NCBI RefSeq assembly: GCF_018141545.1
Contig: NZ_CP064357.1
Coordinates: 1 to 64,000, forward strand
Direction: 5' to 3'
DNA: 64,000 bases
DNA from: Miltoncostaea oceani
Lineage (GTDB): Bacteria; Actinomycetota; Thermoleophilia; Miltoncostaeales; Miltoncostaeaceae
In this document: piece after piece, positions 2 through 51,769 of the stretch
How positions within the stretch are numbered: position 1 is the first letter of the stretch
Layout: each line of letters opens with the position of its first letter
The notes under the pieces: generated by a model
What the model was told of the DNA's origin: nothing
Seen by the model: only the letters and a program-made list of their open reading frames with translations
The model's database searches: none
Program-made: the position numbers and the translations under genes

Positions 2-2251
2 ACACCCTCACCGTCACCTTCTGCCCCGGTCGACGACCCGCTCGCGGAGATGGCCGAGCCCACGCCGGCTTCAGCCCCCGGTGCGGCAAGCCTCGATCCC
101 CTTGCGGATCTGATGGAGCCCGGCCCGTCGGCCAGCCCGCCCGAGGACGACATGTTCGCCCACCTGGATCCGGTCTCGCCCGGCCCTGCCGTCGAGGCCG
201 AGCCCGTCGAGACGCCTGTCCCCGCCATCGAGCCTGAGCCGCCGGTGCACTCAGCGCCGCAGGCCGCGGTGGAGCCCGACCTCGCCCCGGCTGTCGCCGC
301 TCCCATCCCGGCGCCCGTCGCCCCTGCCACGCCCCCGGCGCCCGTCGCCGAGGTTTCCCCGGCCGATGTCGCCGCGCTCCTTGCCCGCATGGAGCAGTCG
401 ATCGCGACGTTCGTGAACACCATGGATGCCCGCGTCGGCGCTCTCGAGCAGAAGCCGGCACACGCCCCTGCGCAGGAGAGCGAGATGGTCGCGCTCCCGC
501 CGGCGTCGACCCCCGTGGCACCTGAGGCGCCCGCTCCGGTTGTCGAGGAGTCCCCGGTGGCCGAGGTCGCCCCGGCTCCCGCGGCTGAGCTGACCCAGGA
601 GCCGGCCGATGCCGAGTTCTTCTCGCCCGAGCCTGAGCCCGCCTCGGCGGCCCCTGTGGCCGAGCCTGTGGCGGCCCCTGTGGCCGAGCCCGAGGTCGCG
701 CCTGAGCCCGACCCCGAGCTGATGGCCCGTCTGGAGGCCGCCCGCGCGGTCGCCGCTGAGCGTCGTGCCGCGGTGGCGAAGCGCGAGCTGCTGGACAAGG
801 CGCTGGCCAAGTTCGAGAGGGGCGCTGACCTCACCCCGATCGAGCGCGCCCTCCTTGAGTCCGAGGGTGTCGACCTGACCCCGCCCGCCCCCGAGCCCAT
901 CGCGGCACCCGAGCCGGTGATCGCCCCCGGGCCGACCCACGCCCCGGAGCCGGTGGACCTCGCCCCGGCCGAGGCCGAGCCGCCCTATGAGCCTGAGCCC
1001 CTGGTCTACGAGCCCGCAACCGCCCAGGGCGCCTGGGAGCCCGAGGGACCCGGTGCCGAGGCATGGGACGAGGCGCCTGCGCCCGACCCTCAGTGGGCCG
1101 CACCGGAGGTGCTTCCCGCCCCCCAGGGAGAGGAATGGGCCGACGACTTCAGCCACATCGCCCCGGCCTCCCACGCCGCCCATGACGACGGCCGCACCGC
1201 ACCCCCGGACCGCGCCCCGGTCGATCCCCTCTGGGCGATCGGCACCCGCGACTCCGAGGAAGAGGAGACCATCCGCACGACGCAGACCTCCGAGCGTCTG
1301 CGTGAGGACTCACGCGAGAGCAACCGCCGGGCGAAGAAGGGCGGCTCGAAGGTCAAGCTGCCGCGCCTGCCGTTCTCGACCCTCGTCAAGGGCGAGCCGC
1401 TGATCATCGCCGTCTTCAGCCCCAAGGGTGGCGCCGGCAAGTCCACGACCTCGGTCAACCTGGCGGCTCTGATGGCGGCCTCCGGCACGGCGTCGGCCGG
1501 CAAGGACGCCGAGCCCCCGCGGATCCTCGTGCTCGACGGCGACATCGCCAACGGCAACCTCGCGATCCGTGTGGCCGGCCGTCTTGAGCCGAACCTGCTG
1601 GAGCTGATCGACTACCTCGACAAGAGCGGTGCCCCGCTGACCGACTTCGAGAGCACGGACTCCCACCGGGCCTCGATGCGGGACTTCGTCCTCTGGCACG
1701 AGGACCTCCCGAACCTGAACGTGCTCGCCGCGCCCGACAACCCCGAGGCCTTCGACGACTTCGAGGTCGGCGACTACGAGCGGGTGCTCGCGATGCTCGG
1801 CCGCTTCTACGACGTCATCATCATCGACTGCGGCACCGAGGTCGTCATGCGCTCCAACCAGACCTGGCTGCGCGCGGCACACCAGGTGTTCCTGCTGACG
1901 CTCCCCGAGCGGGCCGCCCTCCACTCGGCCGGTAAGGCCGCCCGGGTGATCACGCGCGCCGGCCGCGGGCGTCCGGTCCTGGTGACCCCCGACCGCCTCC
2001 ACATCGTGATGATGCGCTCCGACGCCGACCTGGGCTTCGACCCGCGGGTCGGTATGCGCCAGACCTTCGAGTGGGCCGACGGCGCGCACACGACCTACTT
2101 CCGCGACTACGACCAGGAGACCGCGCGGGCGAACAACGCCGGCGACTTCCTGGCGCTCTCGCACGGCGCCTACGCCGAGGACGTCGGTGAGCTGGCCCAC
2201 GCGGCCTTCTCCCACTACGTCGAGCGGCGGCGCGCCGGCCAGGGGCAGTGA
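2..2251 (+). CDS. CpaE/TadZ-like ParA-family ATPase with long Pro/Ala/Glu-rich N-terminus (5' partial)
   Basis: Likely the pilus-localising ATPase of a Tad system, as it directly precedes cpaF. The reading frame is open to the window edge, so the true start lies upstream; the Met at 50 is internal to the same low-complexity sequence. The first 430 or so residues are Pro/Ala/Glu/Val-rich with repeated APVAEP-type units and no visible fold. The C-terminal third is a ParA/MinD domain: deviant Walker A KGGAGKST (K at about residue 459 counting from the Met at 50), switch I region VLDGDIANGN and Walker B VIIIDCG. Typical CpaE proteins carry a receiver-like N-domain; here it is replaced by the disordered region. 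The stop overlaps the cpaF start (GTGA), implying translational coupling. The ParA fold is certain, the Tad role likely. Confidence 0.85.
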   Translation, partial: TPSPSPSAPVDDPLAEMAEPTPASAPGAASLDPLADLMEPGPSASPPEDDMFAHLDPVSPGPAVEAEPVETPVPAIEPEPPVHSAPQAAVEPDLAPAVAAPIPAPVAPATPPAPVAEVSPADVAALLARMEQSIATFVNTMDARVGALEQKPAHAPAQESEMVALPPASTPVAPEAPAPVVEESPVAEVAPAPAAELTQEPADAEFFSPEPEPASAAPVAEPVAAPVAEPEVAPEPDPELMARLEAARAVAAERRAAVAKRELLDKALAKFERGADLTPIERALLESEGVDLTPPAPEPIAAPEPVIAPGPTHAPEPVDLAPAEAEPPYEPEPLVYEPATAQGAWEPEGPGAEAWDEAPAPDPQWAAPEVLPAPQGEEWADDFSHIAPASHAAHDDGRTAPPDRAPVDPLWAIGTRDSEEEETIRTTQTSERLREDSRESNRRAKKGGSKVKLPRLPFSTLVKGEPLIIAVFSPKGGAGKSTTSVNLAALMAASGTASAGKDAEPPRILVLDGDIANGNLAIRVAGRLEPNLLELIDYLDKSGAPLTDFESTDSHRASMRDFVLWHEDLPNLNVLAAPDNPEAFDDFEVGDYERVLAMLGRFYDVIIIDCGTEVVMRSNQTWLRAAHQVFLLTLPERAALHSAGKAARVITRAGRGRPVLVTPDRLHIVMMRSDADLGFDPRVGMRQTFEWADGAHTTYFRDYDQETARANNAGDFLALSHGAYAEDVGELAHAAFSHYVERRRAGQGQ

Positions 2252-3651
2252 GCGAACCGCCGGCAGGCGGGTCAGGCGGCTCCGAGCAGCGTCGCCGTCG
2301 CGAGCTGCTCCAGCAGTCGACACGTTCTGAGAGCAACGGCGGGATTGTCCGCCCCGCCGACATCTACCCGCAGTGGGAGGAGATCACCGATCAGGTGATG
2401 AGCGCCTACGTCTCCCAGGGTCGTGCGAGTGGGGACTTCAACTCCGGCATGGAGGACTCGGCCTTCCACCGCCTGGTGGACCGGGTCTGCGACCAGAACC
2501 CGCACTGGGGCGTTCCTCCCTCGGGCCGGAGCGACCTGGTGCGCTACCTGCGAGATGAGTTCTTCGGGTTCGGCCCGCTCGCTCCCTGGATGGGGATCGA
2601 CGGGCTCGAGGAGATCATGTGCAACCGCTTCGACACCGTCTTCATGATCGTCCACGGCAAGAAGCAGCGGATCGAGCCTTCGCCGTTTCGCACCGAGAAG
2701 GACGTCAGCGACTTCATCAGCCGCGTCTTCGCCGCCCAGGGGCGAGAGCTCACGCTCGCCAACCCGATGGAGGACGGACACCTCAGCGACGGCTCCCGGA
2801 TCCACGCCGAGATCCCCCCGATGGCGGTCAACGGCGCCTGCTTCGCGATCCGTAAGTTCAACCCGCGCCCGTTCACGATGCAGGAGTACGTGGACACCGG
2901 GATGTTCACCGAGGAGTTCCTGGCCGACCTCGAGGCCTGGACTCAGGGCAACCAGAACATGGTGATCTCGGGCGGGACCGCCTCCGGGAAGACGACGCTG
3001 ATCAACGCCATCGGTTGCCTGATCCCCCGAGAGGACCGTCTCATCGTCATCGAGAACACCAAGGAGCTGCAGATCGAGACCGATGACACCCTCTACATCC
3101 AGGCGACCATGCGAGGCGCGCACGAGGGTGCGGGGGAGAGGACGATCACCATCCGCGACGGCGTCCGAGGGGCGCTGCGGCTGACTCCGGATCGCATCAT
3201 CGTCGGCGAGGTCCGCTCACGTGAGGCGCTCGACCTCCTCCAGGCCCTGAACACCGGTCACGACGGCTCCTGGACGACCATCCACGCCAACTCGGCCGTC
3301 GACGCGATCTCCCGGCTGGAGAGCCTCGCCATCATGGCCGACGAGCTCCCGCTCGACGCGATCCAGGACCTGATCGCGCGCGCGGTCGACATCGTCATCC
3401 AGGTCGGGCGCTTCCGGGGCACCGCCTACCGGAAGATCCTCGAGGCCTGGCAGGTCTTCCACCCGCACCAGATCGACGCCGCTAGCCGCGAGCGTGTGAC
3501 GCGCATCAAGGAGGCAGGCCAGCTGCAGCACGTGCGTAGCCGCCTCTACATGATCCCGCTCTACACGATGGATGACGCGGGCGTTCTCGTCCGGCGCAAC
3601 GAGATCATCCCGATCGTCGGCAAGCGCCGACGCGCACCTGCGGGGGCCTAA
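2248..3651 (+). CDS. cpaF: Tad pilus assembly ATPase CpaF/TadA
   Basis: Secretion hexameric ATPase that powers assembly of Flp/Tad pili at the inner face of the membrane. 467 residues, the usual CpaF size. Visible motifs: N-terminal domain with FFGFGPLAPW, Walker A GGTASGKTT, Asp-box region RLIVIENTKELQ, Walker B region RIIVGEVRSREALDLLQALNTGH and His-box SWTTIHANS. The P-loop is uninterrupted, unlike the second CpaF-like gene at 19092. The GTG start overlaps the stop of the upstream CpaE-like gene by 4 bases. TadB and TadC are about 12 kb downstream, after unrelated genes, so the pilus cluster is broken up. The 3' end overlaps the convergent gene at 3648 by 4 bases. Confidence 0.95.
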   Translation: MSEPPAGGSGGSEQRRRRELLQQSTRSESNGGIVRPADIYPQWEEITDQVMSAYVSQGRASGDFNSGMEDSAFHRLVDRVCDQNPHWGVPPSGRSDLVRYLRDEFFGFGPLAPWMGIDGLEEIMCNRFDTVFMIVHGKKQRIEPSPFRTEKDVSDFISRVFAAQGRELTLANPMEDGHLSDGSRIHAEIPPMAVNGACFAIRKFNPRPFTMQEYVDTGMFTEEFLADLEAWTQGNQNMVISGGTASGKTTLINAIGCLIPREDRLIVIENTKELQIETDDTLYIQATMRGAHEGAGERTITIRDGVRGALRLTPDRIIVGEVRSREALDLLQALNTGHDGSWTTIHANSAVDAISRLESLAIMADELPLDAIQDLIARAVDIVIQVGRFRGTAYRKILEAWQVFHPHQIDAASRERVTRIKEAGQLQHVRSRLYMIPLYTMDDAGVLVRRNEIIPIVGKRRRAPAGA

Positions 3652-6154: not shown

Positions 6155-9100
6155 TCAGGTCTGCAGCGCCACTTCCTGCTCACCGATCAGCTGGCGGATC
6201 TCCGCGAGCATCGACGGGCCGATCTCGACCCGTGCCCCGAGCCGGCTGGGACGCCCGTCCATGATCAGCGAGACCGGTGAGGCCCCCGGGTGGGACTCAA
6301 GGATCTCCTGGAGGCGGGCGATCACCTGGGTGGTCCGGCGGTCGGCCGGGAGCGTGATCTCGAGCGGCTGGATGGGATCCATCTTGACCTGGTCCGGCCG
6401 CCACGGATAGACGGTGATCCCGTTCAGCTTGACGGCCTTCTCGGTGACGTCGGCTTCCGGGTCCTCTTCAGCCTCCTGACGTGAGTTTCGGAACGCGTCC
6501 TCGACCACCTTGGCCTTGATCACGCAGAGGGAACCCTCGACGAGCAGGTCCTTGGTCATGTCATCGAGAGAGTCGCTGAAGAACGTGACGGGGCGCGACC
6601 CTGTCAGGTCCTCGACCTCCACCTCGAGGCCGAACGTCTCCCCGGTCTTCTTCTTCAGGACGCGCTGGGCGGTGACTGAGCCCACTACCGTGACGGTCCG
6701 GCCGATCGCCGACCCGTTCAGCGATCCGATGGTGTGGCTGATGTACCGCCGCCACTGACGGCGGCTCTCATCGAGGGGATGTCCCGAGGCGTAGAGCCCG
6801 AGCACCTTGCGCTCGCGGCTGAGTCGCTCGAGCGAGGGCCAGTCGGGGCCGGTCAGAGCCACGAGGGCGAGTTGGTCGTCCATGGCGTCGTCGATCGAGT
6901 CCTCGTCATCGGGCGGGCGCGAGAGAACCGCCGCACAGGCCGCGCGCACGGGCTCGACGAGCGCAGCCAAGACGGCCTCGCGCTCGGGCGCACTCTCCTG
7001 GACCATCTCGGCCGCGCGGGCGTCAGGGTCCTCTGCGTCCTCCTTGCGGGCGGCGAGCCGGGCCTTCCTCAACGCCTCCTTCTCGAGGGCGGCTGCCACC
7101 AGGCTCGACGCGGCCGAGCGGCTCGGCACGGCATTCGCTGCGTATGAGGCCTTGGCGATCGCCTCGAGGCCGCGCTTCTCCTCGGTGCTGAGCTTGCGCG
7201 GCTTGCCGGCCCCCGCGGGGGCGTCGAAGAGGGAGGGGGCGGCGGCCGGCTCCGAAGAGGAGCCCCCAGCCGCCACGGCATCCGTTACCGCGGTCAGGAA
7301 GGCCTTCTCGGCGGCCTTCGCCGCCTTGCGCTGGGTGTCGAGGGTCGGCTCGATCGCGGCGGCCATCGCCATGCGCGAGTGCTTGGTGAAGTCCAGGGCG
7401 CCGGCGAGCACGAGGCGCTCGAGGACCGTCTTGTTCAGATCCGGCAGGCGCCGGATGAGGTCGGGCAGGGAGCGGTAGGGCCCGCGGGTCTCGCGCTCGG
7501 TGCGGATGGCGCGGATGACGTTGTCGCCGACGCCCTTGATCGCCTGGAGGCCGAAGAGGATCTCGAACCGCTTCACGGGGTCGCCCGCGGGGTCGGCGCC
7601 TTCGGCCTCCATCACCGCGAAGTCGCGCAGGGAGCGGTTGAGGTCCGGCGGCAACACCTTCAGGCCCATCCGCCGTGCCTCGGTGATGAAGAACGGCACC
7701 TTGTCCTTGGTGCTCGCGTTGAGACTCATCAGGGCGGCCATGTAAGCCGCTGGATGGTTGCACTTCAGGTAGGCCGTCGAGTAGGCGAGGAGACCGTAGG
7801 CGGCGGCATGGGCCTTGTTGAAGCTGTAGTCGCCAGCCTTCTCGTTGTCCGACCACAGCTGCTCGGCGTCGGCCTTCCGGACGCCGTTGGCGACGCAGCC
7901 TGCCACGAAGGCGGGCTTCAGGGTGGCCATCAGATCCTTGTCCTTCTTGCCGATCGCCTTGCGCAGCGTGTCCGCCTGGCCCGGGGTGAAGCCCCCGAGC
8001 TGACGGGCGGTCAGCATCAGCTGCTCCTGGTACACCGCCACGCCGTAGGTCATGCCGATGATCGACTCGAGGCGCGGGTCCAGGAAGGTGACCTCCTCCT
8101 GCCCGTGCTTGCGGGCGGCGTAGGTCGGGATGTACTCCATCGGGCCCGGCCGGTAGAGCGCCACCAAGGCGATGATGTCGTCGAAGACCGTCGGCTTGAT
8201 CAGCCGCAGGGCCTCACGCATCCCGCCCGAGTTGTGGACCACGACGCCGTTGGCGACATAGTTGTTCAGCGGCCCTTCCATCATGACATCGAAGGTCGGC
8301 TCGATCGCGTCCTCGACGATCTCGATGATCGGCTCGAACTCGAAGTGCGGCGGCAGCTTCGGGCAGTTCCATGCTGCGAAATCGGGATGGGCGAGCTCGA
8401 ACTCGGCGATCTCGTGTGCGCTGACCACCCGCAGCGGCTGATCGGGGAACTCGCGGCGGAACTGCTCGACCTTCAGCTTGCCGCGGCCGCAGAGGCCGGA
8501 CTTGCCCTTCACCTCTACCCAGAGACCGATCTCGCCCAGGTAGAAGTCCGGCGTGTAGCCCGATCCGTCGGCGAAGCGAAAGGTCCGCGGCTCATAGTCA
8601 TACGCGACGCCGGCCGCGATCAGTGCCCTGGCGAAGTCAGCCTCCCAGACCGAGCGCACCGGGTGGTCGAGATCGGGGAACTCGAGACAGGCGGCCACGG
8701 GCTCGTGACCCCACCAGGGGTTGTCGGCCCCACGCCGGATCGTCTGGCTCCACGCCTGAGGGTCTCTGGTGCGAGCCATGTGAGGACCAGTGCCAAGGTG
8801 GCGATTAGAGCAGGAACGGCAACGCACTCCCCGCGACTGCACCCGCTTGCCGCAGTCGGTGCATGCGCCGATCCGTGATGCGTCCCGTCGGTTGACCACG
8901 ACCTGGTCGCCGGGGGACAAGTCTCCGAGCCGCTGCCATCCCCGATCTGTGAGGATGCGGTGATCCTCGGTCGCGCGCAGCAGGTAGCCACCGGCTGTCC
9001 TCATTCGGTAGAGCCGCTTCTCACCTGTCGCGACCACCCGGAGGACGCGATTGCGCCGCCGCGCTCCCTCACCGAGGTCGACCGACAGCATCGCCTCCGG

Positions 9101-11119
9101 CGGGTTCTCATGGAGCTCAGCGATGGTTCGGCGTGGGTCACCGTTCAGAATCGTGTCTCCCGCCACGCACTCCAATTGGAACACCCCGATGGCCTCACCG
9201 CGCGACAGCATCTCGTAGGTCGCGAGGTCGTCCAGGGGCAGGCCGTAGGCGTCGAGCTCGATGCCTTCGGTGTGTCCGACGATCTCGATCGCGCGCTGGA
9301 TGATGTCCAGGTTGCGCAGGCCGAGGAAGTCCATCTTGAGGGCGCCGACGGCCTCGGTGCTCTTCATGTCCCAGCTCGTGGTGATCGGTGCCTCGTCACC
9401 CTTGCGCTGGATCGGGAGAGCCCGCTCGAGCGGCTGATCCCAGATCACGACGCCGGCGGCGTGCACTCCCTCTGAGCGGATGAAGCCCTCCATCCAGCCG
9501 GCGAGGGTGATCACCTCCTTGGCCTCAGCGTCGTTGTCGAAGGCGCGCTGGAAGTCCGGCACGGCTCGATAGACCTCGCGCAGGCTCATGCCGATCGGCT
9601 TGTCGGGGACCATCTTGCAGAGACGGTCTGCCAGTGAGATCGGCTTGCCCAGCACGCGGGCGGCGTCGCGCAGTCCGGCCTTCGCCTGGATCATCCCATG
9701 GGTGATGATCTGAGCGACCGCGGTGTCACAGCCCGCCAGCCCGTTGTACTTGGCGCGGACGTATTCGATCATCTCCTCGCGCCGGACAATCGAGACGTCC
9801 CAGTCGACGTCCGGCATCGAGATCCGGTCCGGGTTCAGGAACCGCTCGAAGAGCAGGTCGTACTGGAGCGGGTCGAGGTGGGTGATCCGCAGGGCGTAGG
9901 CGACGATGGCGCCCGCGGCGGAGCCTCGGCCCGGGCCGGAGGGGATGCCACGCTCGATCGCCTCGCGGACGAAGTCCCAGACGATCAGGAAGTAGTCGTT
10001 GAAGCCCATGTTGTCGATGACCCCGAGCTCGAACTCGAGGCGCTCACGCTGGGCCTCGGTCTGCTCGGCCCGCGGCCCGTAGCGGTCCTCCATCCCCAGC
10101 TCGCAGAGGTGGCGCAGGTACTCCTTGGAGGTCGGGAAGCCCTCGGGGAGGGGGAAGCGCGGGAGCATCGACTGGCCGTAGGCGATCTGCGCGTCGCATC
10201 GCTCGGCGAGGACGAGGGTGTTGGCGAGAGCCTCGGGGAACTCGGGCAGCAGCTCGGCGACCTCCGACTCCGTGCGGAAGTGGTAGTTCTTCGGCAGCAG
10301 CGAGAAGCGCCGGTTCTCCATGTCCGGCGTTCCGTCCGGACGACGGGCCTGCTGCTGGCCGGTCCCGACGCAGAGCAGGGCGTCGTGGGGGACCGCGTCC
10401 TCGGCGCGCAGGTAGTGCACGTCGCCGGTTGCGAGCAGAGGCACGCCGAGATCGGCGCAGATGAGCGCGAGCTCGCGGTTGGCCTCGGTCTGGGTGAGCG
10501 TGAACTTGCCGAGCTTGTGAGCGAGCTCGGAGTCGGCGGGGATCTGCTCGGTGATCCCGACGTTCTGGATCTCGCCGTAGACGTTCTCGAGGCCGAAGAT
10601 CTCGGTCAGACGCTTGGTGTAGGCCCGCGCCGCCTCGAGGTCGCCGCGGAAGATGCTGCTCATCACCGGGGCGGCCATGCAGCCGGTGAGGGCGATCAGG
10701 CCTTCGGAGAACTCGCCGAGCAGCTCCCAGTCGGCCCGGGCCCGCTTGTTGAAGTAGCCCTCCAGGTAGGCGCGCGAGGTGAGCGCGTAGAGGTTCCTGA
10801 GGCCCTCGGAGGTCCGGGCGATCAGACCGAGGTGCCAGGTGTTCGTGTCGCGCTTCTTGATCGCCCGGTCATCGGTGAGGTACGCCTCGACGGAGAGGAT
10901 CGGCTTGATCCCCTCCTTGCGGCAGGCCTTCTCGAAGGCCGGCAGGCCGGAGATGGTCCCGTGGTCGGAGAGGCCGAGCGCGACGTGACCGCGCTCCTTG
11001 GCGAGGGCGACCAGCTGGGGGATCTTGCAGGCTCCGTCCAGGCTCGAGTACTCCGAGTGGACATGGAGGTGACAGAAGTTCTCCGGCGTGGGCGCCGGCG
11101 CCTCGGGCTCTGATGACAT
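6155..11119 (-). CDS. dnaE: DNA polymerase III alpha subunit with intein
   Basis: Replicative polymerase. 1654 residues including a 313-residue intein, so about 1341 after splicing. N-terminal PHP domain with apparently intact metal ligands (CHLHVHSEYS, LSDHGT, GDVHYL), which in mycobacterial DnaE1 gives 3'-5' exonuclease proofreading. Catalytic core: GPGRGSAAG, PDVDWD carrying two acidic residues, and KMDFLGL with the third. Tandem HhH, OB fold (GRTVTVVGSVTAQRV) and C-terminal domain follow. The HhH-to-OB segment (about 6830-7370) is roughly 100 residues longer than in E. coli, with an Ala/Lys-rich insert. The intein interrupts VFQLE/SGGM, the well-known DnaE insertion site. The intact active site argues for a functional enzyme. 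Confidence 0.96.
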   Translation of the reverse strand: MSSEPEAPAPTPENFCHLHVHSEYSSLDGACKIPQLVALAKERGHVALGLSDHGTISGLPAFEKACRKEGIKPILSVEAYLTDDRAIKKRDTNTWHLGLIARTSEGLRNLYALTSRAYLEGYFNKRARADWELLGEFSEGLIALTGCMAAPVMSSIFRGDLEAARAYTKRLTEIFGLENVYGEIQNVGITEQIPADSELAHKLGKFTLTQTEANRELALICADLGVPLLATGDVHYLRAEDAVPHDALLCVGTGQQQARRPDGTPDMENRRFSLLPKNYHFRTESEVAELLPEFPEALANTLVLAERCDAQIAYGQSMLPRFPLPEGFPTSKEYLRHLCELGMEDRYGPRAEQTEAQRERLEFELGVIDNMGFNDYFLIVWDFVREAIERGIPSGPGRGSAAGAIVAYALRITHLDPLQYDLLFERFLNPDRISMPDVDWDVSIVRREEMIEYVRAKYNGLAGCDTAVAQIITHGMIQAKAGLRDAARVLGKPISLADRLCKMVPDKPIGMSLREVYRAVPDFQRAFDNDAEAKEVITLAGWMEGFIRSEGVHAAGVVIWDQPLERALPIQRKGDEAPITTSWDMKSTEAVGALKMDFLGLRNLDIIQRAIEIVGHTEGIELDAYGLPLDDLATYEMLSRGEAIGVFQLECVAGDTILNGDPRRTIAELHENPPEAMLSVDLGEGARRRNRVLRVVATGEKRLYRMRTAGGYLLRATEDHRILTDRGWQRLGDLSPGDQVVVNRRDASRIGACTDCGKRVQSRGVRCRSCSNRHLGTGPHMARTRDPQAWSQTIRRGADNPWWGHEPVAACLEFPDLDHPVRSVWEADFARALIAAGVAYDYEPRTFRFADGSGYTPDFYLGEIGLWVEVKGKSGLCGRGKLKVEQFRREFPDQPLRVVSAHEIAEFELAHPDFAAWNCPKLPPHFEFEPIIEIVEDAIEPTFDVMMEGPLNNYVANGVVVHNSGGMREALRLIKPTVFDDIIALVALYRPGPMEYIPTYAARKHGQEEVTFLDPRLESIIGMTYGVAVYQEQLMLTARQLGGFTPGQADTLRKAIGKKDKDLMATLKPAFVAGCVANGVRKADAEQLWSDNEKAGDYSFNKAHAAAYGLLAYSTAYLKCNHPAAYMAALMSLNASTKDKVPFFITEARRMGLKVLPPDLNRSLRDFAVMEAEGADPAGDPVKRFEILFGLQAIKGVGDNVIRAIRTERETRGPYRSLPDLIRRLPDLNKTVLERLVLAGALDFTKHSRMAMAAAIEPTLDTQRKAAKAAEKAFLTAVTDAVAAGGSSSEPAAAPSLFDAPAGAGKPRKLSTEEKRGLEAIAKASYAANAVPSRSAASSLVAAALEKEALRKARLAARKEDAEDPDARAAEMVQESAPEREAVLAALVEPVRAACAAVLSRPPDDEDSIDDAMDDQLALVALTGPDWPSLERLSRERKVLGLYASGHPLDESRRQWRRYISHTIGSLNGSAIGRTVTVVGSVTAQRVLKKKTGETFGLEVEVEDLTGSRPVTFFSDSLDDMTKDLLVEGSLCVIKAKVVEDAFRNSRQEAEEDPEADVTEKAVKLNGITVYPWRPDQVKMDPIQPLEITLPADRRTTQVIARLQEILESHPGASPVSLIMDGRPSRLGARVEIGPSMLAEIRQLIGEQEVALQT
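8231..9169 (-). other. DnaE intein, class 1, with zinc finger and PD-(D/E)xK-like endonuclease
   Basis: Inserted between E650 and Ser of the host motif VFQLES; 313 residues. It starts with Cys1 (CVAGDT), has block B ATEDHRILTDRGW and ends FDVMMEGP...VVVHN before Ser+1, so all standard splicing residues are present. The central insert is not LAGLIDADG. It shows a Cys4 zinc module (CTDCGK, CRSCSN), a NUMOD3-like GADNPWWG and a nuclease-like core WEADFARAL...TPDFYLG...WVEVKGK, i.e. E, D, ExK as in PD-(D/E)xK or Vsr-type enzymes. It probably encodes an unusual homing endonuclease. Confidence 0.9.
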
Positions 11120-14705: not shown

Positions 14706-15596
14706 TCAGAGAGCGTCGCGGCGGCGCCCGTCGCGGACGATCGCCCGGATGACCGTCGCCCCCGGGCGATCGAGCCCGAAGTGGATGCCCTGTCCGTCCA
14801 CACCCCGACCGAGGGGATGTTCCATCGGTGCGTCCTCGCGCTCACCCATCAGCTGCGACCAGCCGAGGAGGATGTCGCGCTCGATAGCGGAGAGGCCAGA
14901 GGGCGTCGACCCGAGACGCTCGCAGAGATCGCCCTCGCTCAGCCACTGGCCGGGGGCGTGGGCGAGGGCGCTCATCAGCGCCCGGGCTGGCTCGTCGAGG
15001 TGCCGCCAGAGGTCCGCGACAGGGTCATCCAGAGATCCGGCCCGCAAAGCCTCCTGCGTCAGGACGTCGAGGACCTTCTGCCGCGAGCTGTCAGGCAGAT
15101 CACGCAGGGTGTCGATAAGGACGGCCTCCTCGGGATCGAGGGCGTCCTCGACGGCGGGGGCGCCGATCCCAGCCTGCGAGTCGAGCGGCGCGCGCTGGAG
15201 GTGATCGAGCAGATCGCTGATCAGGAGCTCGAGCTCCTCCTCACTGAGATCCTCCGCTGACTGGCACCGGGATCCGAGGACGACACAGACCGCGCAGGCT
15301 CCGGAGTCGTTGAGGTCCCCCTGGACCTGGGAGACGGCGTGGCGAAGGACCTCCCGGGAGGCGCCGGCGAACAGGCAGGACAGAAGCTCCTCATCGAGGG
15401 ATGTCCACTCGGCGATCCGGCCACGTTCGTCGGCGCTCAGAGCGACGGGTTCGCCCCCGAGGAGGGCCTCGGCACGCTCGGAGCCGATCAGTCCCCTCAG
15501 CCAGCTTGCAGCGGCGGGCATCTCACCGCGGGTGCGGTCGGCGATGCGCCGGTTCAGGGTGCCGGCCAGGCGTGAAGCGAGCTCCGGGGACAGCAT
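14706..15596 (-). CDS. Hypothetical protein
   Basis: 296 residues, acidic and largely helical, no signal peptide or membrane segment. It contains CAVCVVLGSRC, a Cys-rich patch near residue 100, and a C-terminal segment VRAIVRDGRRRDAL. A winged-helix-like stretch (ALAHAPGQWLSEGDLCERLGSTPSGLSAIERDIL) suggests possible DNA binding. Divergent from tadB with about 105 bases between. Function unknown. Confidence 0.65.
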   Translation of the reverse strand: MLSPELASRLAGTLNRRIADRTRGEMPAAASWLRGLIGSERAEALLGGEPVALSADERGRIAEWTSLDEELLSCLFAGASREVLRHAVSQVQGDLNDSGACAVCVVLGSRCQSAEDLSEEELELLISDLLDHLQRAPLDSQAGIGAPAVEDALDPEEAVLIDTLRDLPDSSRQKVLDVLTQEALRAGSLDDPVADLWRHLDEPARALMSALAHAPGQWLSEGDLCERLGSTPSGLSAIERDILLGWSQLMGEREDAPMEHPLGRGVDGQGIHFGLDRPGATVIRAIVRDGRRRDAL

Positions 15597-15703
15597 CGAC
15601 GACGACGATAGGTCCGGCCCTGTACGCGCAGGCGCTTTTTCACCCAGCCCGCCGAGCGGAGAAACTCTCGGCGCGGCGGCACGCGCGGCACGATGAAGGC
15701 CGG

Positions 15704-16573
15704 ATGTCAGAACTCGTTCTGCCCATCGGTGTCTTCCTCATCAGCGGCCTGCTGCTGATGCTCGGTCTGCTCCGCAACCCCGCCGGCGATCCCTTCGAGA
15801 TGAAGGAGCGCCGCTCCAGTACCTCGCGCCAGCTCGAGAGGCGCCTGCGCCGGGCGGGACTGCTCGGCACGACCCCCGGCTTCGCCCTGGTTCTCGCAGG
15901 TGGGACGACCGCGATGATCTGGCTCGTCGCCACCCTGCTGACCGCCAGTCCTTACCCGGGCCTGGCGGCGGTCGTCATCGTTCCACTCGGCGGATGGTTC
16001 TTCCTCACCTTCCGAGAGCGCGGCTACGTCAAGCGGGCCTCATCGGAGCTCGTGCCCTTCCTGCGCAAGATCGAGTCGCAGATCCGCGCCGGTCGGCTGC
16101 CCCAGGCCGCCTATGCCCAGGCCGTGTCCGAGTCGGTCCACCTGCGGCCGGCGCTCGAGCAGTCGCTTGCTGAGCTCCGCCTCAGCCGCCCCTTCATCGA
16201 GGTCCTGCGCGAGTCAATGGCGCGGCTGCCGCTGCGCAGCTGGGAGCAGTTCGTGCGCCAGCTGGAGATCCACTCGGAGACCGGCGGGGATCTGGCGGAG
16301 ATCATCAGCGACGCGGTCAAGCAGATCGACCAGCTGATCCGTCTGCAGGCCCGCATGCGCGCCGAGTACGCGACCTTCGCCAAGCAGCAGATGGTCCTGG
16401 TCGCGGTGGCGATCGCCGTCTTCCCCGGCCTTCATCTGATGGGTCTGCTCGGTGAGCTCACCGGGACGCTCACCGGCTGGGGAGCGATCGGGGTCGCGCT
16501 GCTGATGATGGGCGCCGGAATCTTCTACGGGCAGCGTTCACTGCGCGACATCGAGAGGCGGCTCGAGTTCTGA
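15704..16573 (+). CDS. tadB: Tad pilus inner-membrane protein TadB-like (GspF family)
   Basis: 289 residues from the ATG at 15704 (upstream GAAGG as RBS). Platform protein that pairs with TadC to couple CpaF motion to pilus assembly. Membrane segments at the N-terminus (PIGVFLISGLLLMLGLL), in the middle (two segments near TTAMIWLVATLL and AAVVIVPLGGWFFL) and C-terminus (LVAVAIAVFPGLHLMGLL, WGAIGVALLMMGAGIFYG). The cytoplasmic GspF/T2SSF domain has LVPFLRKIESQIRAGRLPQAAY and HSETGGDLAEIISDAVKQI. The stop overlaps the tadC start (TGATG). Confidence 0.9.
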   Translation: MSELVLPIGVFLISGLLLMLGLLRNPAGDPFEMKERRSSTSRQLERRLRRAGLLGTTPGFALVLAGGTTAMIWLVATLLTASPYPGLAAVVIVPLGGWFFLTFRERGYVKRASSELVPFLRKIESQIRAGRLPQAAYAQAVSESVHLRPALEQSLAELRLSRPFIEVLRESMARLPLRSWEQFVRQLEIHSETGGDLAEIISDAVKQIDQLIRLQARMRAEYATFAKQQMVLVAVAIAVFPGLHLMGLLGELTGTLTGWGAIGVALLMMGAGIFYGQRSLRDIERRLEF

Positions 16574-17511
16574 TGCTGTTGCTCCTCACACTCCTGGTCT
16601 TCTTCCTCTCGGCGATCGTGCTGATGCGGGGGTATCTGCGCCGTGGCGAGGACCGCCCCATGACCGCCGCCGAGGAGAGCTACAGCCGACTCGTCGCCGA
16701 GACACTCGCCCGAGACAACTCCGACATGCGCCAGAGCGCGCCCAACAAGCCGAGCCGCGTCCGGCAGGTCACCAACTTCCTCACCGGGCGGGGTCTCTTC
16801 CGCTCGGAGGAGGCGCGCGACGTCCTCAGCTGGCTGGATCGCCAGCTGACCCTGGCCGGGCGCCCCGGAGGTTGGAGCGCCCAGGAGGCGATCGTCTTCA
16901 ACCTGATGATCTGGGCGGTCGGGACCCTCCTGGCGATCATGTCGATCAGCGCAGGCCTGCCCCGCTGGCTGGTCGTGGTCGTCCTGCTGACCGTCTTCAG
17001 CTACCCCTACCTGAAGCTGCGGGCGATGATCAACCGCCGCCAGGAGCAGGCCAAGCTCGAGATGCCGGCCTTCATCAACGACCTGATCATGGGCATCGGC
17101 TCCACGAGCGGAACCTTGGACGAGGCGATCGGCCGAGTCGTCCGCGACCCCACCGCCACCGGGTCGGACAGGATCCTCGTCCGCGAGTTCGCACAGGCCT
17201 TCGCGGAGTACCGCCACGGCAACCGCGACCGTGAGCAGGCCCTGCGCGCCGTCGCCGAGAGGCTCGGCGTCGACAACGTCCGCAACTTCGTCGAGGCTCT
17301 GATCGAGGGGCTCCGCTCGGGCACGAGCGTCAAGCACATCCTCCAGTCGCAGTCCACGCAGGCCCAGGCGGTCTTCGAGCAGGACATGAAGGCGTTCATC
17401 GCCCGCAAGGAGTCCTCGTTCATCATCGGCCTGGTGCTGATCTTCTTCGGGATCATCATCCTCGTGATGACCCCGCTGGTGCTGCGCCTCTCCGACGTCT
17501 TCTCCGCCTAG
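16573..17511 (+). CDS. tadC: Tad pilus inner-membrane protein TadC-like (GspF family)
   Basis: 312 residues, second platform protein. The T2SSF domain has FINDLIMGIGSTSGTLDEAIGRVV and NFVEALIEGLRSGTSVKHILQSQ. Hydrophobic segments at residues 1-20, about 105-150 and at the C-terminus (FIIGLVLIFFGIIILVMTPLVL). The start overlaps the tadB stop by one base, so the two are translationally coupled. Reads as an intact gene. Confidence 0.9.
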   Translation: MLLLLTLLVFFLSAIVLMRGYLRRGEDRPMTAAEESYSRLVAETLARDNSDMRQSAPNKPSRVRQVTNFLTGRGLFRSEEARDVLSWLDRQLTLAGRPGGWSAQEAIVFNLMIWAVGTLLAIMSISAGLPRWLVVVVLLTVFSYPYLKLRAMINRRQEQAKLEMPAFINDLIMGIGSTSGTLDEAIGRVVRDPTATGSDRILVREFAQAFAEYRHGNRDREQALRAVAERLGVDNVRNFVEALIEGLRSGTSVKHILQSQSTQAQAVFEQDMKAFIARKESSFIIGLVLIFFGIIILVMTPLVLRLSDVFSA

Positions 17512-18502: not shown

Positions 18503-19039
18503 ATGGGACCCCGACGCAGACTGACTCTCCTGCTCGCCACCGCCGCACTGCTGGCACCGGCGACGGCGAGTGCGGCGCCAGCGATGCCCGGGCCCGCCGC
18601 CTGCCCGGGGGCTGAACGGCTCGACCTCCCCGTCGCCGCACAGCAGAAGGCGATGACCTGCCTGGTGAACAGGACCCGCCAGGCCCGCGGTCTTGCGGTC
18701 CTCCGCCCCCACTCAGCCCTCGCCAGGAGCACCTCCTTGAAGGCGAAGGCGATCCTCCGGTGCGAAAGCTTCAGCCACACCCCCTGTGGCCAGGCATTCA
18801 CTGCGACGCTGACACAGTCGCGCTACCCGTTCCGCACCGCGGCCGAGAACATCGCCTACGGGGGCGGGCCATACGCCTCCGCCTGGTCCACCTACCGCAG
18901 CTGGATGGCGTCTCCCGGCCACCGGGCCAACATCCTGAACCACAAGGTCCGTGAGCACGCCGTCGTTGTCATCCCGTCCACGAGTATCGACGGCGCCGAC
19001 GACGTCGCGCTCTGGGTCCAGCAGTTCGCCGCCCGCTGA
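18503..19039 (+). CDS. Secreted CAP/SCP-domain protein
   Basis: 178 residues. Signal peptide RRLTLLLATAALLAPATASA. The CAP (SCP/PR-1) domain shows LVNRTRQARGLAVLRPHSALARSTSLKAK, CESFSHTPCG, AAENIAYGGG, SWMASPGHRANILN and a final LWVQQFA. The conserved His and Glu of the CAP cavity are present (SFSH, AENIA, GHRANIL). Bacterial CAP proteins are extracellular and of varied function. Positioned inside the Tad-like cluster, so it may be co-expressed with pili. Confidence 0.9.
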   Translation: MGPRRRLTLLLATAALLAPATASAAPAMPGPAACPGAERLDLPVAAQQKAMTCLVNRTRQARGLAVLRPHSALARSTSLKAKAILRCESFSHTPCGQAFTATLTQSRYPFRTAAENIAYGGGPYASAWSTYRSWMASPGHRANILNHKVREHAVVVIPSTSIDGADDVALWVQQFAAR

Positions 19040-19091
19040 GGATCGGGGGAACGCTCAAGGGCACGGAGGCCGGGGCTACTGTCGCGTGGAC

Positions 19092-21503
19092 ATGCCTGAT
19101 CCCCACTCGCGCGACTACCCAGCACCCCCTCCGATCGGCCGGTTCGGCGGCCCTCCTGCGCGCGACACCTCGGATACACGTGTGAGCGATCCGGGTGCTG
19201 ACATCCGGTTCCCCCTTCGGACCGAGGCCCCCGCGAGCGACCCCATGGTGCCGCTCCTGCCGATCGGCGACGGACAGGCCGAGAGCTTCACCCGCTGGTC
19301 GAGCCGTCGCGACGCCATCGTCGGGACCGGCGATCCCCGGGCCTTCGGGGCACGCGCGGTCGATCTACCTCTCAGCACCGATGACGAGCCGTCGACGAAC
19401 TCACAGGCGGCGATGGACGCGATCGCGGCCGGCATCGCATCCCCGCGCTGCAGCGAGATCCACGGATGCGGACCGGACCAGCTCTTTGCCAAGTTCGAGG
19501 GCACCTTCCATCGCATCGACGTCCGCTTCGACGATGAGGCGAGCTACAACAGCTGGGTCAAGGAGCAGGTCGACACCGCCGAGGCGGTCATCAGCTGGAA
19601 CGACATCACCGAGCGCCGGCGCGGGATCTTCCAGCGCGCCGACGGTTCGTCGATGACCGTCGTCCTGCCGCCCTTCGCCCCGTTCCAGGCCTTCAGCATC
19701 CGCAAGCAGACCGTCGGTGACTGGACCCTTGAGCAGCTCGTGGCCGGCGGGTCGATGAGCAACCAGATGGTCTCCTACCTGCGCGCCGTCGTCGCCGCCC
19801 GCGGCAACATCCTGATCGTCGGCGAGATGGGAGCCGGCAAGGCTCAGAGCCTCGACTCGAAGGTGCTCACTCCCACCGGCTGGACCCGGATGGGAGACAT
19901 CTCTGTGGGCGATCAGGTCATCGGCCGGGACGGCGAGCCGCACCGGGTGCTCGGGGTGTACCCCCAGGGTGAGCGCCAGTCCTATCGGGTGACCATGAGC
20001 GACGGCGGCACCACCGAGTGTTGTGATGAGCACCTCTGGGCGACCCTCTCGCCACTCCACAAGTTCCGGGGCAAGGAGGCAACGGTCCGACCGCTGAGTG
20101 AGATCCGCGAGCGCCTGCGCGACGGCGCCGGTAACCGCCAGCACTTCCTGCCCCTGTGTGAGCCTGTCCAGTTCGCACCGCAGGATGCCCCGCTTCCGCT
20201 CGACCCCTACCTGCTCGGCCTGCTGCTTGGCGACGGAGGCCTTACGTCGCGGACTCCGGTGCTCACCACCGCAGACCCGGAGATCGTTGAGACACTCGCC
20301 GCGATCCTCCCGGAGGGCGTCGTTCCCAAGCTCAGTGGGAAGTATGACTACCGGCTGAGTGGCGGCGTCCGCGGCCGGCCGAACCCGCTCACGGTGGCAC
20401 TCCGCGAACTCGGCCTGATGGGCAAGTACTCCCACGAGAAGCACGTCCCCGATGCCTACCTCTTTGCCTCGGTGGCCTCGCGCACCGCGCTGCTACAGGG
20501 GCTTCTGGACACCGACGGTTCGCCCACCGGCAGGGGCGGGATCGATTTCTCGGTGTCGTCCCCTGACCTCGCCGAGGCGGTCGTCTTCCTGATCAGATCG
20601 CTCGGCGGCACAGCCCGCCTGCGGCCGAGGACGACCACCCACCGGATGGCCTACCGCGTCACGGGCCGGGTGCCGAACGAGATCCCCGCCTTCCGCCTTT
20701 CGCGCAAGCTGAGGAACGACCCCGACTACGTGAAGTATGGGCCGTGCCGTGCCATCGACAAGGTCGAGCCCTGTGGGGTCAAGCAGATGGTGTGCATCTC
20801 CATCGACTCCCCCGACCAGCTCTATGTCACGGATGACTTCATCGTCACTCACAACACCAGCATGATCAACATGCTGAGCCACGAGTTCGCGCCGAACGAG
20901 CGCATCGCGGTGATCGAGGAGATCCCCGAGATCCAGATCGCCCAGCCCCAGGTCGTCTACCTGACCTACCAGCCGATGCAGGCGACCCTCGGCCTCAAGG
21001 AGGTCTTGGACTCCTCGCTCTACATGCGCTTCGACCGCGTGATCGTCGGTGAGGTCCACCTCGAGGGCATCACGAAGATGCTCGAGGTCTGGATGACCGG
21101 CTCTGACGGCAGCTTCTCGACCTACCACTCCGACTCGTGTGAGCGGGCAGTCGAGCGGATGAAGCTCGCGCTCCAGCTCGAGAACCCGAACATGACCGCG
21201 GAGACGGCGCTCGGCCTGATCCGCCAGGCCGTCGATGTCGTGGTCGTCCTCGACCGCGTCGGGGGCCTCCACCGGTGCACCGAGATCGTCGAGATCGACT
21301 GGCGCGAGAGCGGCGGTCCGGGGAAGGTCGGCCAGAACCGGATCTTCGCCCTCGACCGCAAGGCGGATCGGCACCTTGCCGCCGGCAAGCCCGATGAGAA
21401 GGGCAAGGTCATGGTCAAGGCCGCCAAGTACGGCATCCCGTTCTCCGCCGACTGGTTCGCGGCCCCCCTCGGGGAGGGCTTCGGCTCCCTCCCGCGTCGC
21501 TGA
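19092..21503 (+). CDS. Second CpaF/TadA-like secretion ATPase, interrupted by an intein in the P-loop
   Basis: 803 residues; 465 after removal of the 338-residue intein, the size of a CpaF ATPase. The start at 19092 excludes the overlap with the CAP gene. Host motifs: FSIRKQTVGDW, Walker A GEMGAGK followed, after the intein, by TS, then RIAVIEEIPEIQ, RVIVGEVHLEGITKMLEVWMTGSDGSFSTYHSDS. It is clearly diverged from cpaF at 2248 (for example FSTYHSDS in place of WTTIHANS). The P-loop is restored only by splicing, so activity depends on the intein. Probably the motor for a second pilus or for retraction; that role is inference. Confidence 0.88.
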   Translation: MPDPHSRDYPAPPPIGRFGGPPARDTSDTRVSDPGADIRFPLRTEAPASDPMVPLLPIGDGQAESFTRWSSRRDAIVGTGDPRAFGARAVDLPLSTDDEPSTNSQAAMDAIAAGIASPRCSEIHGCGPDQLFAKFEGTFHRIDVRFDDEASYNSWVKEQVDTAEAVISWNDITERRRGIFQRADGSSMTVVLPPFAPFQAFSIRKQTVGDWTLEQLVAGGSMSNQMVSYLRAVVAARGNILIVGEMGAGKAQSLDSKVLTPTGWTRMGDISVGDQVIGRDGEPHRVLGVYPQGERQSYRVTMSDGGTTECCDEHLWATLSPLHKFRGKEATVRPLSEIRERLRDGAGNRQHFLPLCEPVQFAPQDAPLPLDPYLLGLLLGDGGLTSRTPVLTTADPEIVETLAAILPEGVVPKLSGKYDYRLSGGVRGRPNPLTVALRELGLMGKYSHEKHVPDAYLFASVASRTALLQGLLDTDGSPTGRGGIDFSVSSPDLAEAVVFLIRSLGGTARLRPRTTTHRMAYRVTGRVPNEIPAFRLSRKLRNDPDYVKYGPCRAIDKVEPCGVKQMVCISIDSPDQLYVTDDFIVTHNTSMINMLSHEFAPNERIAVIEEIPEIQIAQPQVVYLTYQPMQATLGLKEVLDSSLYMRFDRVIVGEVHLEGITKMLEVWMTGSDGSFSTYHSDSCERAVERMKLALQLENPNMTAETALGLIRQAVDVVVVLDRVGGLHRCTEIVEIDWRESGGPGKVGQNRIFALDRKADRHLAAGKPDEKGKVMVKAAKYGIPFSADWFAAPLGEGFGSLPRR
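19842..20855 (+). other. Class 3 intein with LAGLIDADG endonuclease in the pilus ATPase P-loop
   Basis: 338 residues (host residues 251-588) inserted after the P-loop Lys (GAGK / TS). The first residue is Ala (AQSLDSKVLTPTGW), not Cys or Ser. The class 3 WCT triplet is visible: Trp66 in block B (CCDEHLW), Cys318 in block F (QMVCISIDSPDQLY) and Thr336 in block G (IVTHN), with Thr+1 after. Two LAGLIDADG motifs (PYLLGLLLGDGG and ALLQGLLDTDGS) retain their acidic residues, so the homing endonuclease looks active. Confidence 0.88.
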
Positions 21504-21594: not shown

Positions 21595-22119
21595 GTGGGT
21601 CTGAGGGAGAAGCTACTCGGTGCAGTGGGAGTCGACGTCGCTCCGCAGCCGACCGCTCGTGAAGAGCAGGAGGACGAGCTGCGCGACTCGATGTGCATGG
21701 CCTGGCGCTGGCTCCGCGCCCTGGTCGTCGACCGCGCGACGAGTCAGTACTTCGAGACCGGCGACACCGAGAACCTGCGCAAGTTCCTCGAGCCCGAGCT
21801 CGCCGATCGCATGATCGCCTACCTCGACGGGCTCCGCGACCAGGGAATGGCCGCGATCCCCGTTCGGAAGATCGATCGCGACGGCGCCGAGGTCAACATC
21901 ATCGACCGCCGCCTCAACAGCGACGGCACGGTGGAGCACTTCGTCGTCGAGGAGAGCTTCCGGGACACGAGCGGCCTGGTCATGGTCGAAGGCCAGCGCC
22001 CGATGTCCGACCCGCTGATCGCCTCAGGCGACCAGCGGATGCTGAGGGCGACGGTCGTCTGCACGGGGCCGCAGTCCTACCGCATCCGCGACATCCGCCA
22101 GGTCAGCATTGGGGAGTGA
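21595..22119 (+). CDS. Hypothetical protein of the pilus locus
   Basis: 174 residues, GTG start with AAGGAG about 10 bases upstream. Cytoplasmic; no signal or membrane segment. The layout LRKFLEPELADRMIAYLDGL, then KIDRDGAEVNIIDRRLNSDGTVEHFVVEESFRD, resembles a Tim44/NTF2-like alpha+beta fold, but this is tentative. Its 3' end overlaps the start of the prepilin peptidase gene by about 11 bases, suggesting coupling. No family recognised with confidence. Confidence 0.6.
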   Translation: MGLREKLLGAVGVDVAPQPTAREEQEDELRDSMCMAWRWLRALVVDRATSQYFETGDTENLRKFLEPELADRMIAYLDGLRDQGMAAIPVRKIDRDGAEVNIIDRRLNSDGTVEHFVVEESFRDTSGLVMVEGQRPMSDPLIASGDQRMLRATVVCTGPQSYRIRDIRQVSIGE

Positions 22120-23035
22120 CATCAGCCTGATCTCGGGCGACCCGGAGCGCAACCCGCTCCTGTCCCTCGCGATCCGTGGCTCGGTGCCGGGGACCTGGCT
22201 GGGCGCCCTCTTCGGGGTCCTGCTGGCCATCATGTGCCTGGCGAGCTTCTACGACCTCTGGCGTGGCCGGATGATCCCCCACTGGATCACGAACACGGTC
22301 CTCGTGACCGGCGTGGTGATTCCACCGCTCGCCTTCGAGGACTGGCGGGCCCACTACGTGATCGCCGGCGCGGTGCTGCTGCTCTTCGGCGCCTTCTACT
22401 GGCTCGGGGGTATCGGCATGGCCGACCTGAAGCTCTACATCGCCTTCGGTCTCCTCTTCGGGTTCACGGCGGTCTACATCATCGCCGCGACCCACGTCAT
22501 CGCGACCGTTGTCATGGTCCCGATCGCACTGAGAAAGCGCGACCGCAAGCTCGCCGCGCCCATGTTCCCCTTCGCCGCCGCCGCTCTGGTGCTCGTCTCG
22601 AACGGCATCGGAGCGCCCCCCTGGATGACGGCATCCGGTGCCGCGCTGCTTGCGGTCGCCGTCCTCTACGGCCTCTATGAGAGCCGTTTCAGGACGCCGC
22701 CGTCGATCACGGATCACCTGCCCCTGATGGAGGGACGCGACGAGATCCGCCTTCGAGCGGGCAGCCGTCCCCTCGAGCGGGACGCCGACGGCAACTGGAC
22801 CGAGATCGCATCGGCTCCTCGGGTCAGCGGTGCGGCACTCGACCGCGTCGTCTACCAGCTCGTCGGTCACGACCCTGATCTTCGTTCCCGCCTGGACCGG
22901 GGCGGTGAGCTCCGGATCGACCACGTCGAGGACGGTAGGCCCTTCTCTCTGACGGTGACGGAGACCACTCACAGCTACGCCGTCGTCATCGGACCGGGCG
23001 TATCAGCGCCGGTGCCGGACCCTCTGCCTGCCTGA
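22109..23035 (+). CDS. A24-family prepilin peptidase (CpaA/TadV-like) with C-terminal extension
   Basis: 308 residues from a TTG start at 22109; a GTG near 22174 is an alternative. Polytopic N-terminal region of about 190 residues with both catalytic Asp regions: FYDLWRGRMIPHWIT and GGIGMADLKLYIA (GxGDxK-like with Ala in place of the second Gly). It would cleave prepilin leader peptides at the membrane. It lacks the N-terminal zinc/methyltransferase domain of PilD. The last 110 residues are soluble (RLRAGSRPLERDADG...FSLTVTETTHSYAVVIGPG) and unlike known peptidases. Overlaps the preceding gene. Confidence 0.82.
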   Translation: MGSDISLISGDPERNPLLSLAIRGSVPGTWLGALFGVLLAIMCLASFYDLWRGRMIPHWITNTVLVTGVVIPPLAFEDWRAHYVIAGAVLLLFGAFYWLGGIGMADLKLYIAFGLLFGFTAVYIIAATHVIATVVMVPIALRKRDRKLAAPMFPFAAAALVLVSNGIGAPPWMTASGAALLAVAVLYGLYESRFRTPPSITDHLPLMEGRDEIRLRAGSRPLERDADGNWTEIASAPRVSGAALDRVVYQLVGHDPDLRSRLDRGGELRIDHVEDGRPFSLTVTETTHSYAVVIGPGVSAPVPDPLPA

Positions 23036-42557: not shown

Positions 42558-42611
42558 GCCTGCGCAAGAAGGATCCAGCGGCATGTAACCGCGCTGCTAC
42601 GGTCGCTTGTG

Positions 42612-51600: not shown

Positions 51601-51769
51601 CTCGCGCTCCCTCACCTACACCGCCGTCACCCGCGCTCAGAAGCTCGTCGTCGTGGTCGGCGAGGCGAAGGCGATGCGGATGGCGGTCGCGAAGGTCGAC
51701 CTGCGCAAGCGCAACTCGACCCTGATCGAGCGGATCCTCGACCCCGAGCTGTCCGGAGAGCTCTTCTAG
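48602..51769 (+). CDS. RecD2-like DNA helicase interrupted by an intein
   Basis: 1055 residues including a 278-residue intein; about 777 after splicing, matching the paralogue at 42612. N-terminal OB-like region (DGRWQEHAQHGWSFSVVNYQ), HhH (VSGIGPTFAKAITDQLGDKA, NPYVMIEIPGVGFKQADKIA), Walker A GGPGVGK / T split by the intein, APTGKAARRM, VCDEASMLSL, VGDPDQLPPVGVG, LDRVFRQ and WALSIHKSQGSQWPAVV. It probably works in duplex unwinding like the other copy. The divergent AAA gene shares a 180-base upstream region. The 3' end overlaps mutM by 4 bases. Confidence 0.92.
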   Translation: MATTQPRQTKGKRPFWMNASGGRADTPPVDASETTLRVTLEGNAPRFSSPDGSFAIWNASRDSDGARVTVKGPLARCAGGELLACDGRWQEHAQHGWSFSVVNYQSSLPQSAEGMQKWLQARVSGIGPTFAKAITDQLGDKAFDLIDQNPEVLRSIRSAKGVAFPSASVEKVIEVWAEVRAMRQIETWLFGAGVTANLAGRLYRRYGAEVVEILTDNPYVMIEIPGVGFKQADKIALGLDWPKDDPRRVQAGILHCIEEAEGDGNTFVTLEQLFARAGNELGVGDKPLIATQATELLKSEVLVVEATENTQRIYRAETWNLEARVARRVRNLLEAAGGPMIGNLTRPSLPAGMTEDEARANHMYVPTDQQWAALEMAFANRIALLTGGPGVGKCVGPQTPVLVNGAEHQAAEIWQTMAGDDRTPDADGEWATPREPLTTVSLMDDGRLAPAAITKLYRQPVRETLRMVRLADGAQILITGEHRLLTETGWSNDLSVGVRVAVPGHLPASAREPEIHPELAGHLACQSALTRDAVRQLIPACVVGGGPRTRAGFLSQFIELANEWEDPARIDITSDSRSLLEQLRLMLGRFGIRLEIEPSGFTWRARLGAEATARYREQVLSGSFTEEDGGEGAIAFSPIVAIELVDYEGFVYDFEVAGPHNYLAGGLVAHNTASQDMIIQSALTAGKTIALTAPTGKAARRMTEITGQPATTIHRLLEWSPIEGGFCRDESSPLEVDLVVCDEASMLSLDLAEALLAAIGPGTHLLLVGDPDQLPPVGVGKFLADLIDSEKVPRTHLDRVFRQAASSMIITNAHRINRGELPYRRHAEAEAAEGRTMQMDSFWMLRDTPEETAELVIELAAERLPRTYGLDPVADVMILAPMYKGACGLEVLNGRMQEFMNEHGKPIGMRNMRVGDRIVQNRNDYTHGRETSNGQIGIVKSFDPEALEAHVLLDDERTIVLPVGDMETWSLAWALSIHKSQGSQWPAVVTAVSTAHYVMLSRSLTYTAVTRAQKLVVVVGEAKAMRMAVAKVDLRKRNSTLIERILDPELSGELF
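49781..50614 (+). other. RecD2 intein, class 1, with decayed LAGLIDADG domain
   Basis: 278 residues (host residues 394-671) inserted after the P-loop Lys. Cys1 (CVGPQTPVLVNG), block B ITGEHRLLTETGW, block F FVYDFEVAGPHNYLAG and LVAHN before Thr+1: splicing residues intact. The linker still shows an endonuclease outline (HPELAGHLAC, RAGFLSQFIELAN, SLLEQLRLMLGRFGIRLEI), but the acidic residues of the LAGLIDADG motifs are missing. It probably splices yet no longer homes. Confidence 0.87.

Follow-up and report, generated by a model that had tools for sequence, protein, structure and literature searches.

Class 3 inteins are a rarer kind of intein, and the archaeal KlbA proteins, some of which host class 2 inteins, are members of the secretion-ATPase superfamily. 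Inteins of class 3 are defined by Trp at B:12, Cys at F:4 and Thr at G:5, by a position 1 without a nucleophile, and by Ser or Thr at +1, with a single known case of Cys+1 (PMC5222942, PMC5050341). Inteins of class 2 have Asp at F:4, Ser at G:6 and Cys at +1 (PMC4031507). The GK^ position of Walker A (^ marks the insertion point) is the classic site of P-loop inteins (PMC5050341), whereas the class 3 intein of Bvi IcmO sits at LGF^C and not in Walker A (PMC5222942). A Snf2 intein of Deinococcus radiodurans has also been cited as class 3 (PMC6195587).

The DNA analyzed here (the window) is the initial 64 kb of contig C2, which is 815,643 bp long and belongs to a 4.54-Mb genome whose contig C1 measures 3.68 Mb. 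We are highly confident that the window encodes a genuine class 3 intein, equipped with a LAGLIDADG homing endonuclease, and that this intein separates Lys from Thr in the Walker A motif of a secretion ATPase that is CpaF/TadA-like but divergent (Table 1). This explanation is built on residues, homology, predicted fold, site, an intact frame and endonuclease motifs. The precursor lies in an uninterrupted open reading frame of 850 amino acids (18951–21503, forward strand), and a later start at 19092 is favored because a gene for a CAP-domain protein (18503–19039, forward strand) overlaps the 5' part of this frame. Translation of 19842–20855 (forward strand) gives 338 residues without stops, and direct indexing places Ala1, Trp66 (B:12), Cys318 (F:4), Thr336 (G:5), His337 and Asn338, followed by Thr+1. 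Block B reads C60-C61-D62-E63-H64-L65-W66 and block G ends in T336-H337-N338; a preceding sequence-only reading of this DNA had given the same Ala start, the same three WCT residues and the same borders, exact to the residue. It had also described the P-loop as interrupted, and this is what we find: the N-extein ends in LIVGEMGAGK and the C-extein starts with TSMINML, and leaving the intein out yields GEMGAGKTS within a single continuous secretion-ATPase domain. Pfam profiles match the precursor as T2SSE and LAGLIDADG_3 (PF14528) with a weak Hint match. HMM matches to the host domain are split at the intein borders (precursor residues 161–300 and 635–841) and dozens of homologues align with the intein over its full length at about 35–54% identity, so the resemblance is not due to chance. 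The intein has only two Trp residues (positions 14 and 66) and a GC content of 67% compared to 69% for the window; a point against the above explanation is Ser at position 3, where 54 of 58 aligned sequences have Pro.

Table 1. Coordinates of the intein locus and related features (window positions unless marked C2).
Feature	Position	Strand	Remarks
TadZ/ParA-like gene	50–2251	+	separate from the intein locus
Canonical intein-free TadA, Walker A GGTASGKTT	2248–3651	+	paralogue without intein, within the window
Two T2SSF (TadB/TadC-like) membrane platform genes	15401–17511	+	Pfam; first scores just below cut-off; upstream of host
Precursor gene, CpaF/TadA–TrbB-like secretion ATPase plus intein	19092–21503	+	first ATG at 19092, frame open from 18951
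N-extein part of Walker A, GEMGAGK	19821–19841	+	direct indexing, alignment with relatives
Class 3 intein, 338 aa	19842–20855	+	Ala1, block B, C318 (F:4), block G
LAGLIDADG homing endonuclease region	20211–20519	+	first to second motif; domain limits approximate
C-extein Thr+1 and next Ser, completing Walker A (GEMGAGK^TS)	20856–20861	+	direct indexing, alignment
A24 prepilin peptidase	22109–23035	+	Pfam; downstream of host
C2 tRNA loci L203, L210, L219	C2: 351–363 kb, 489–502 kb, 671 kb		

Without the intein, the host has its best solved matches in CpaF (8RKD at 1e-26; 8RJF and 9E24 likewise at about 1e-26), followed by VirB11, archaeal GspE and FlaI, in agreement with the CpaF-like host that had been proposed. 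Yet it stays under every NCBIfam cut-off, including that of the curated CpaF/TadA family: TrbB ranks before VirB11 and TadA with 132 bits (cut-off 304.55), TadA scores 110.7 (cut-off 373.15), and the broad Pfam T2SSE cut-off is the only one reached. Because all NCBIfam scores are this far below threshold, we call the host, as judged from its sequence, a divergent member of the CpaF/TadA–TrbB–VirB11 superfamily. Aligned to eight relatives, it keeps the Walker A Lys-Thr, the Walker B Glu and one His of the His box; its Walker A reads GEMGAGKTS as opposed to GGTGSGKTT or GGTASGKTT in intein-free relatives. ATPase activity does not seem assured, since GEVR of the Tad consensus is changed to GEVH and TGHDGS to TGSDGS at positions conserved in relatives. 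No closer orthologue of the host was found among 61 relatives plus its own genome and the 396 genomes of the phylum (best about 30–35% identity), nor in viral contigs. The T2SSF genes and the A24 prepilin peptidase provide a Tad/type IV pilus gene context and speak for a Tad-like pilus rather than conjugation; no pilin gene was recognized in this context.

An AlphaFold2 model of the intein built on a 58-row alignment is confident (mean pLDDT 96.6, pTM 0.94). Its whole-chain structural neighbors are LAGLIDADG inteins with PI-SceI in first place (Z 26.6, 2.9 Å over 315), and among HINT-only structures the class 3 DnaB inteins 6BS8 (Z 20.6, 1.4 Å over 123 residues, 35% identity) and 6RIX (Z 20.0, 1.8 Å over 126) rank first and second, ahead of gp41-1 (Z 18.3). 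The endonuclease domain is PI-SceI-like by sequence and structure matches. Both of its motifs, LLGLLLGDGG (intein residue 124) and LLQGLLDTDG (residue 217), are intact with their acidic residues present, and the homing endonuclease thus appears to be intact.

Ala1 and a host from the broad ATPase superfamily that includes KlbA might also suggest a class 2 intein, but we regard this reading as next to inconceivable. Where class 2 has Asp at F:4, Ser at G:6 and Cys at +1 (PMC4031507), this intein has Cys318, His337 and Thr and so shares none of the features of that class, while every sequence feature that defines class 3 is present (W66, C318, T336, Ala1, Thr+1), in line with the class 3 assignment of the sequence-only reading. 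An alignment with known class 3 inteins, suggested as a check, points the same way: in a phmmer comparison with Msm DnaBi1, intein residues 3–69 and 316–338 align, and W66, C318 and T336 fall on its Trp67, Cys118 and Thr137 (numbering from PMC6195587). W66, C318, T336, H337 and N338 are invariant in the 58 aligned sequences, where the conservation of W66 is partly built in because ECCDEHLW was a recruiting pattern, but C318 and T336 are part of no such pattern. Relatives from a full-length search of whole genomes likewise keep Trp at B:12. Moreover, all 142 related loci placed by a pattern that also permitted Phe at B:12 and Ala, Val or Ser at G:5 have Trp at the former (142/142) and Thr at the latter (142/142), followed by Thr (133) or Ser (9) at +1. 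The inteins that RecD2 and DnaE carry in this window differ: they begin with Cys, have no Thr at G:5 and, by reading, seem to carry Asp at F:4 (VYDFEV and TFDVMM).

Two further readings accept class 3 and differ in what the intein does. It could be a splicing-dead or cleavage-only remnant in a redundant, decaying host gene, as the divergence of the host, its substitutions at conserved positions and the intein-free paralogue nearby might indicate; however, the 850-residue frame is unbroken, no catalytic residue is missing, both LAGLIDADG motifs are preserved and the intein model is confident (pLDDT 96.6), making this very improbable. It could also be conditional, with Cys318 serving as a redox switch, perhaps via C60-C61, that would withhold active ATPase until conditions are reducing. 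The Cys48–Cys118 disulfide of Msm DnaBi1 (PMC6195587) is a precedent, and C60 and C61 are present in 58/58 and 57/58 aligned sequences, respectively, though these counts are biased by the recruiting pattern ECCDEHLW; with A60, S61 and D61 variants occurring among genome-wide relatives, we think such a switch unlikely.

For an active class 3 intein, characterized members of the class lead us to infer how it splices, that it homes and that the host is inactive until spliced. Cys318, and not Ala1, would attack the Lys-Ala junction to form a branched thioester at block F, the N-extein would be transferred to Thr+1, Asn338 would cyclize with assistance from His337, and an O-N acyl shift would join GEMGAGK to TS and restore the P-loop. 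Before splicing, the host ATPase would be without normal ATP binding; homing would be made possible by endonuclease cleavage of alleles that lack the intein and match in their Walker A sequence. The claim that ATP binding by the host depends on splicing is thus probably right. Piliation may depend on splicing as well, but the companion claim that pilus function does so is too strong given the canonical intein-free TadA (2248–3651) in the same window and two further T2SSE-family ATPases on C2 (at 794.6 and 796.5 kb), with more of them on C1.

Relatives of the intein were found as 93 stretches (80 kept) in 84,980 species genomes and elsewhere as 48 loci in viral contigs, 660 phage records and 39 plasmids, and 22 of 396 genomes of the same phylum have them (the window's own included); sampling was incomplete, with the named-genome scan using six peptide patterns and the phylum searches covering 396 genomes. 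The view that class 3 inteins belong mainly to DnaB-type helicases and actinobacteria does not hold for these relatives, which are spread over many phyla and phages: their hosts, assigned by Pfam, record annotation or sequence reading, include SNF2/SF2 helicases, DarB-like proteins, RecD2, RecG, PhoH, Lon, AAA proteins, TerL and TraD besides DnaB. As in this locus, where the intein interrupts Walker A at Lys^Thr, GK^ is the site in 84 of the 90 relatives examined, supporting the view of class 3 inteins as Walker A specialists that move among unrelated P-loop NTPases. In PhoH proteins of several genomes of the same phylum (L009, L150, L156, L161 and others), class 3 inteins lie outside the P-loop, at MRGR^T. 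A KlbA-like position, as had been suggested, finds no support because KlbA-type inteins of class 2 have Cys+1 (and Ser at G:6; PMC4031507), so that the residue after them cannot be the Walker A Thr/Ser.

In a tree built without any class 2 sequence, the intein falls among class 3 inteins of SNF2/SF2 helicases (nearest L015, L013 and L014) but has no supported sister, and we therefore claim no donor. Co-conversion of a helicase-like GEMGAGK P-loop from a donor is unlikely: with Tad-like residues on either side of the motif, it would require a tract of about 20 nt; a pre-existing match of the host P-loop to the endonuclease site would be simpler. The named-genome, genome-wide, plasmid and viral loci yielded no second CpaF/VirB11 protein with a class 3 intein. 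None of the plasmid records spans 80% of the precursor, and a CpaF-family HMM gave no match to the ORFs of class 3 loci (best E 0.47) with controls recovered; this search covered the loci of class 3 relatives. We also found no paper joining inteins with CpaF, which is weak evidence with the subscription literature mostly outside the search. Mechanism, site and intein lineage are thus all known, and the host family is new as far as searched.

More surprising than the class 3 intein itself is the intein-rich 816-kb contig around it. C2 has at least seven inteins, in DnaE, the CpaF-like ATPase, RecD2, ribonucleotide reductase (two), a MoxR/AAA_5-like ATPase and a VirD4/HerA-like protein, while none was detected on C1 with PF14890, PF14528 or the intein of the CpaF-like host as query. 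Four of them (CpaF-like, RecD2, MoxR-like, VirD4/HerA-like) are inserted at Walker A GK^Ser/Thr. The intein of the RecD2 helicase (48602–51769, forward strand) belongs to class 1 (Cys1) and, at GPGVGK^T, interrupts the P-loop where the class 3 intein of the CpaF-like host does too, and the two Lys^Thr inteins of one window offer a paired comparison of two splicing mechanisms in one genome; no intein was seen in a second RecD2-like gene (42609–44981). DnaE (6155–11119, reverse strand), which shares 48–59% identity with the intein-free DnaE of C1, has a Cys1 intein in which, by reading, a Cys-rich Zn-ribbon-like part and a PD-(D/E)XK/VSR-like stretch (YTPDFYL..WVEVKG) seem to replace LAGLIDADG. 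A class 3-type intein with Ser1, H-N-W, VRCIAV and PTHN^S is found at RTGTGK^S in locus L222 (12070–17046; C2:736070–741046), in a putative VirD4/HerA-like ATPase without a Pfam match at 1e-3. Two ATPases of the secretion or transfer type on C2 would then host class 3 inteins, the second of them by reading.

C2 also encodes about 40 tRNAs, with most of their genes arranged in arrays, as well as a tmRNA and a tRNA-SeC; next to the about 45 tRNA matches on C1 this is nearly a second set. A profile search for Terminase_6N gave no match. The contig is probably a secondary replicon but could be an assembly piece and not a separate molecule. Tentatively, and with more doubt than conviction, one may see C2 as a reservoir of inteins of two classes in which class 3 endonucleases tolerant of many Walker A sequences spread from helicases to pilus and transfer motors. 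If true, the assembly of surface machines would be tied to protein splicing.

The present locus adds the CpaF/TadA–VirB11 motor family to the list of class 3 hosts and makes available a confident model of a class 3 intein whose homing endonuclease appears intact. Compared to described systems, it shares WCT residues, P-loop site, HINT fold, the lack of a nucleophile at position 1 and Ser/Thr+1 with the mycobacterial DnaB inteins (Msm DnaBi1, 6BS8; Mch DnaB1, 6RIX), which have a different host. Msm DnaBi1 is, furthermore, a mini-intein without endonuclease and with Asp at B:7 (PMC6195587), whereas our intein has a full endonuclease and Cys61 at that position. Class 3 inteins of SNF2/SF2 helicases (L013–L016, L018 and L019) have equal size, the AQ-LD start, block B ECCDEHLW, block G YVTDDFIVTHN, a LAGLIDADG domain and the GK^T site in common with it at about 48–54% identity, and differ in their helicase host. 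The class 2 inteins of archaeal KlbA share Ala1, but their Asp at F:4, Ser at G:6 and Cys+1 (PMC4031507) indicate a different mechanism, and the +1 residue also implies a different site. Secretion ATPases as class 3 hosts have precedents in Bvi IcmO and, with a related class 3(-like) intein, IncF TraD (KR827394), both plasmid-borne type IV secretion ATPases; these are coupling proteins, however, and not motors of the CpaF/VirB11 type.
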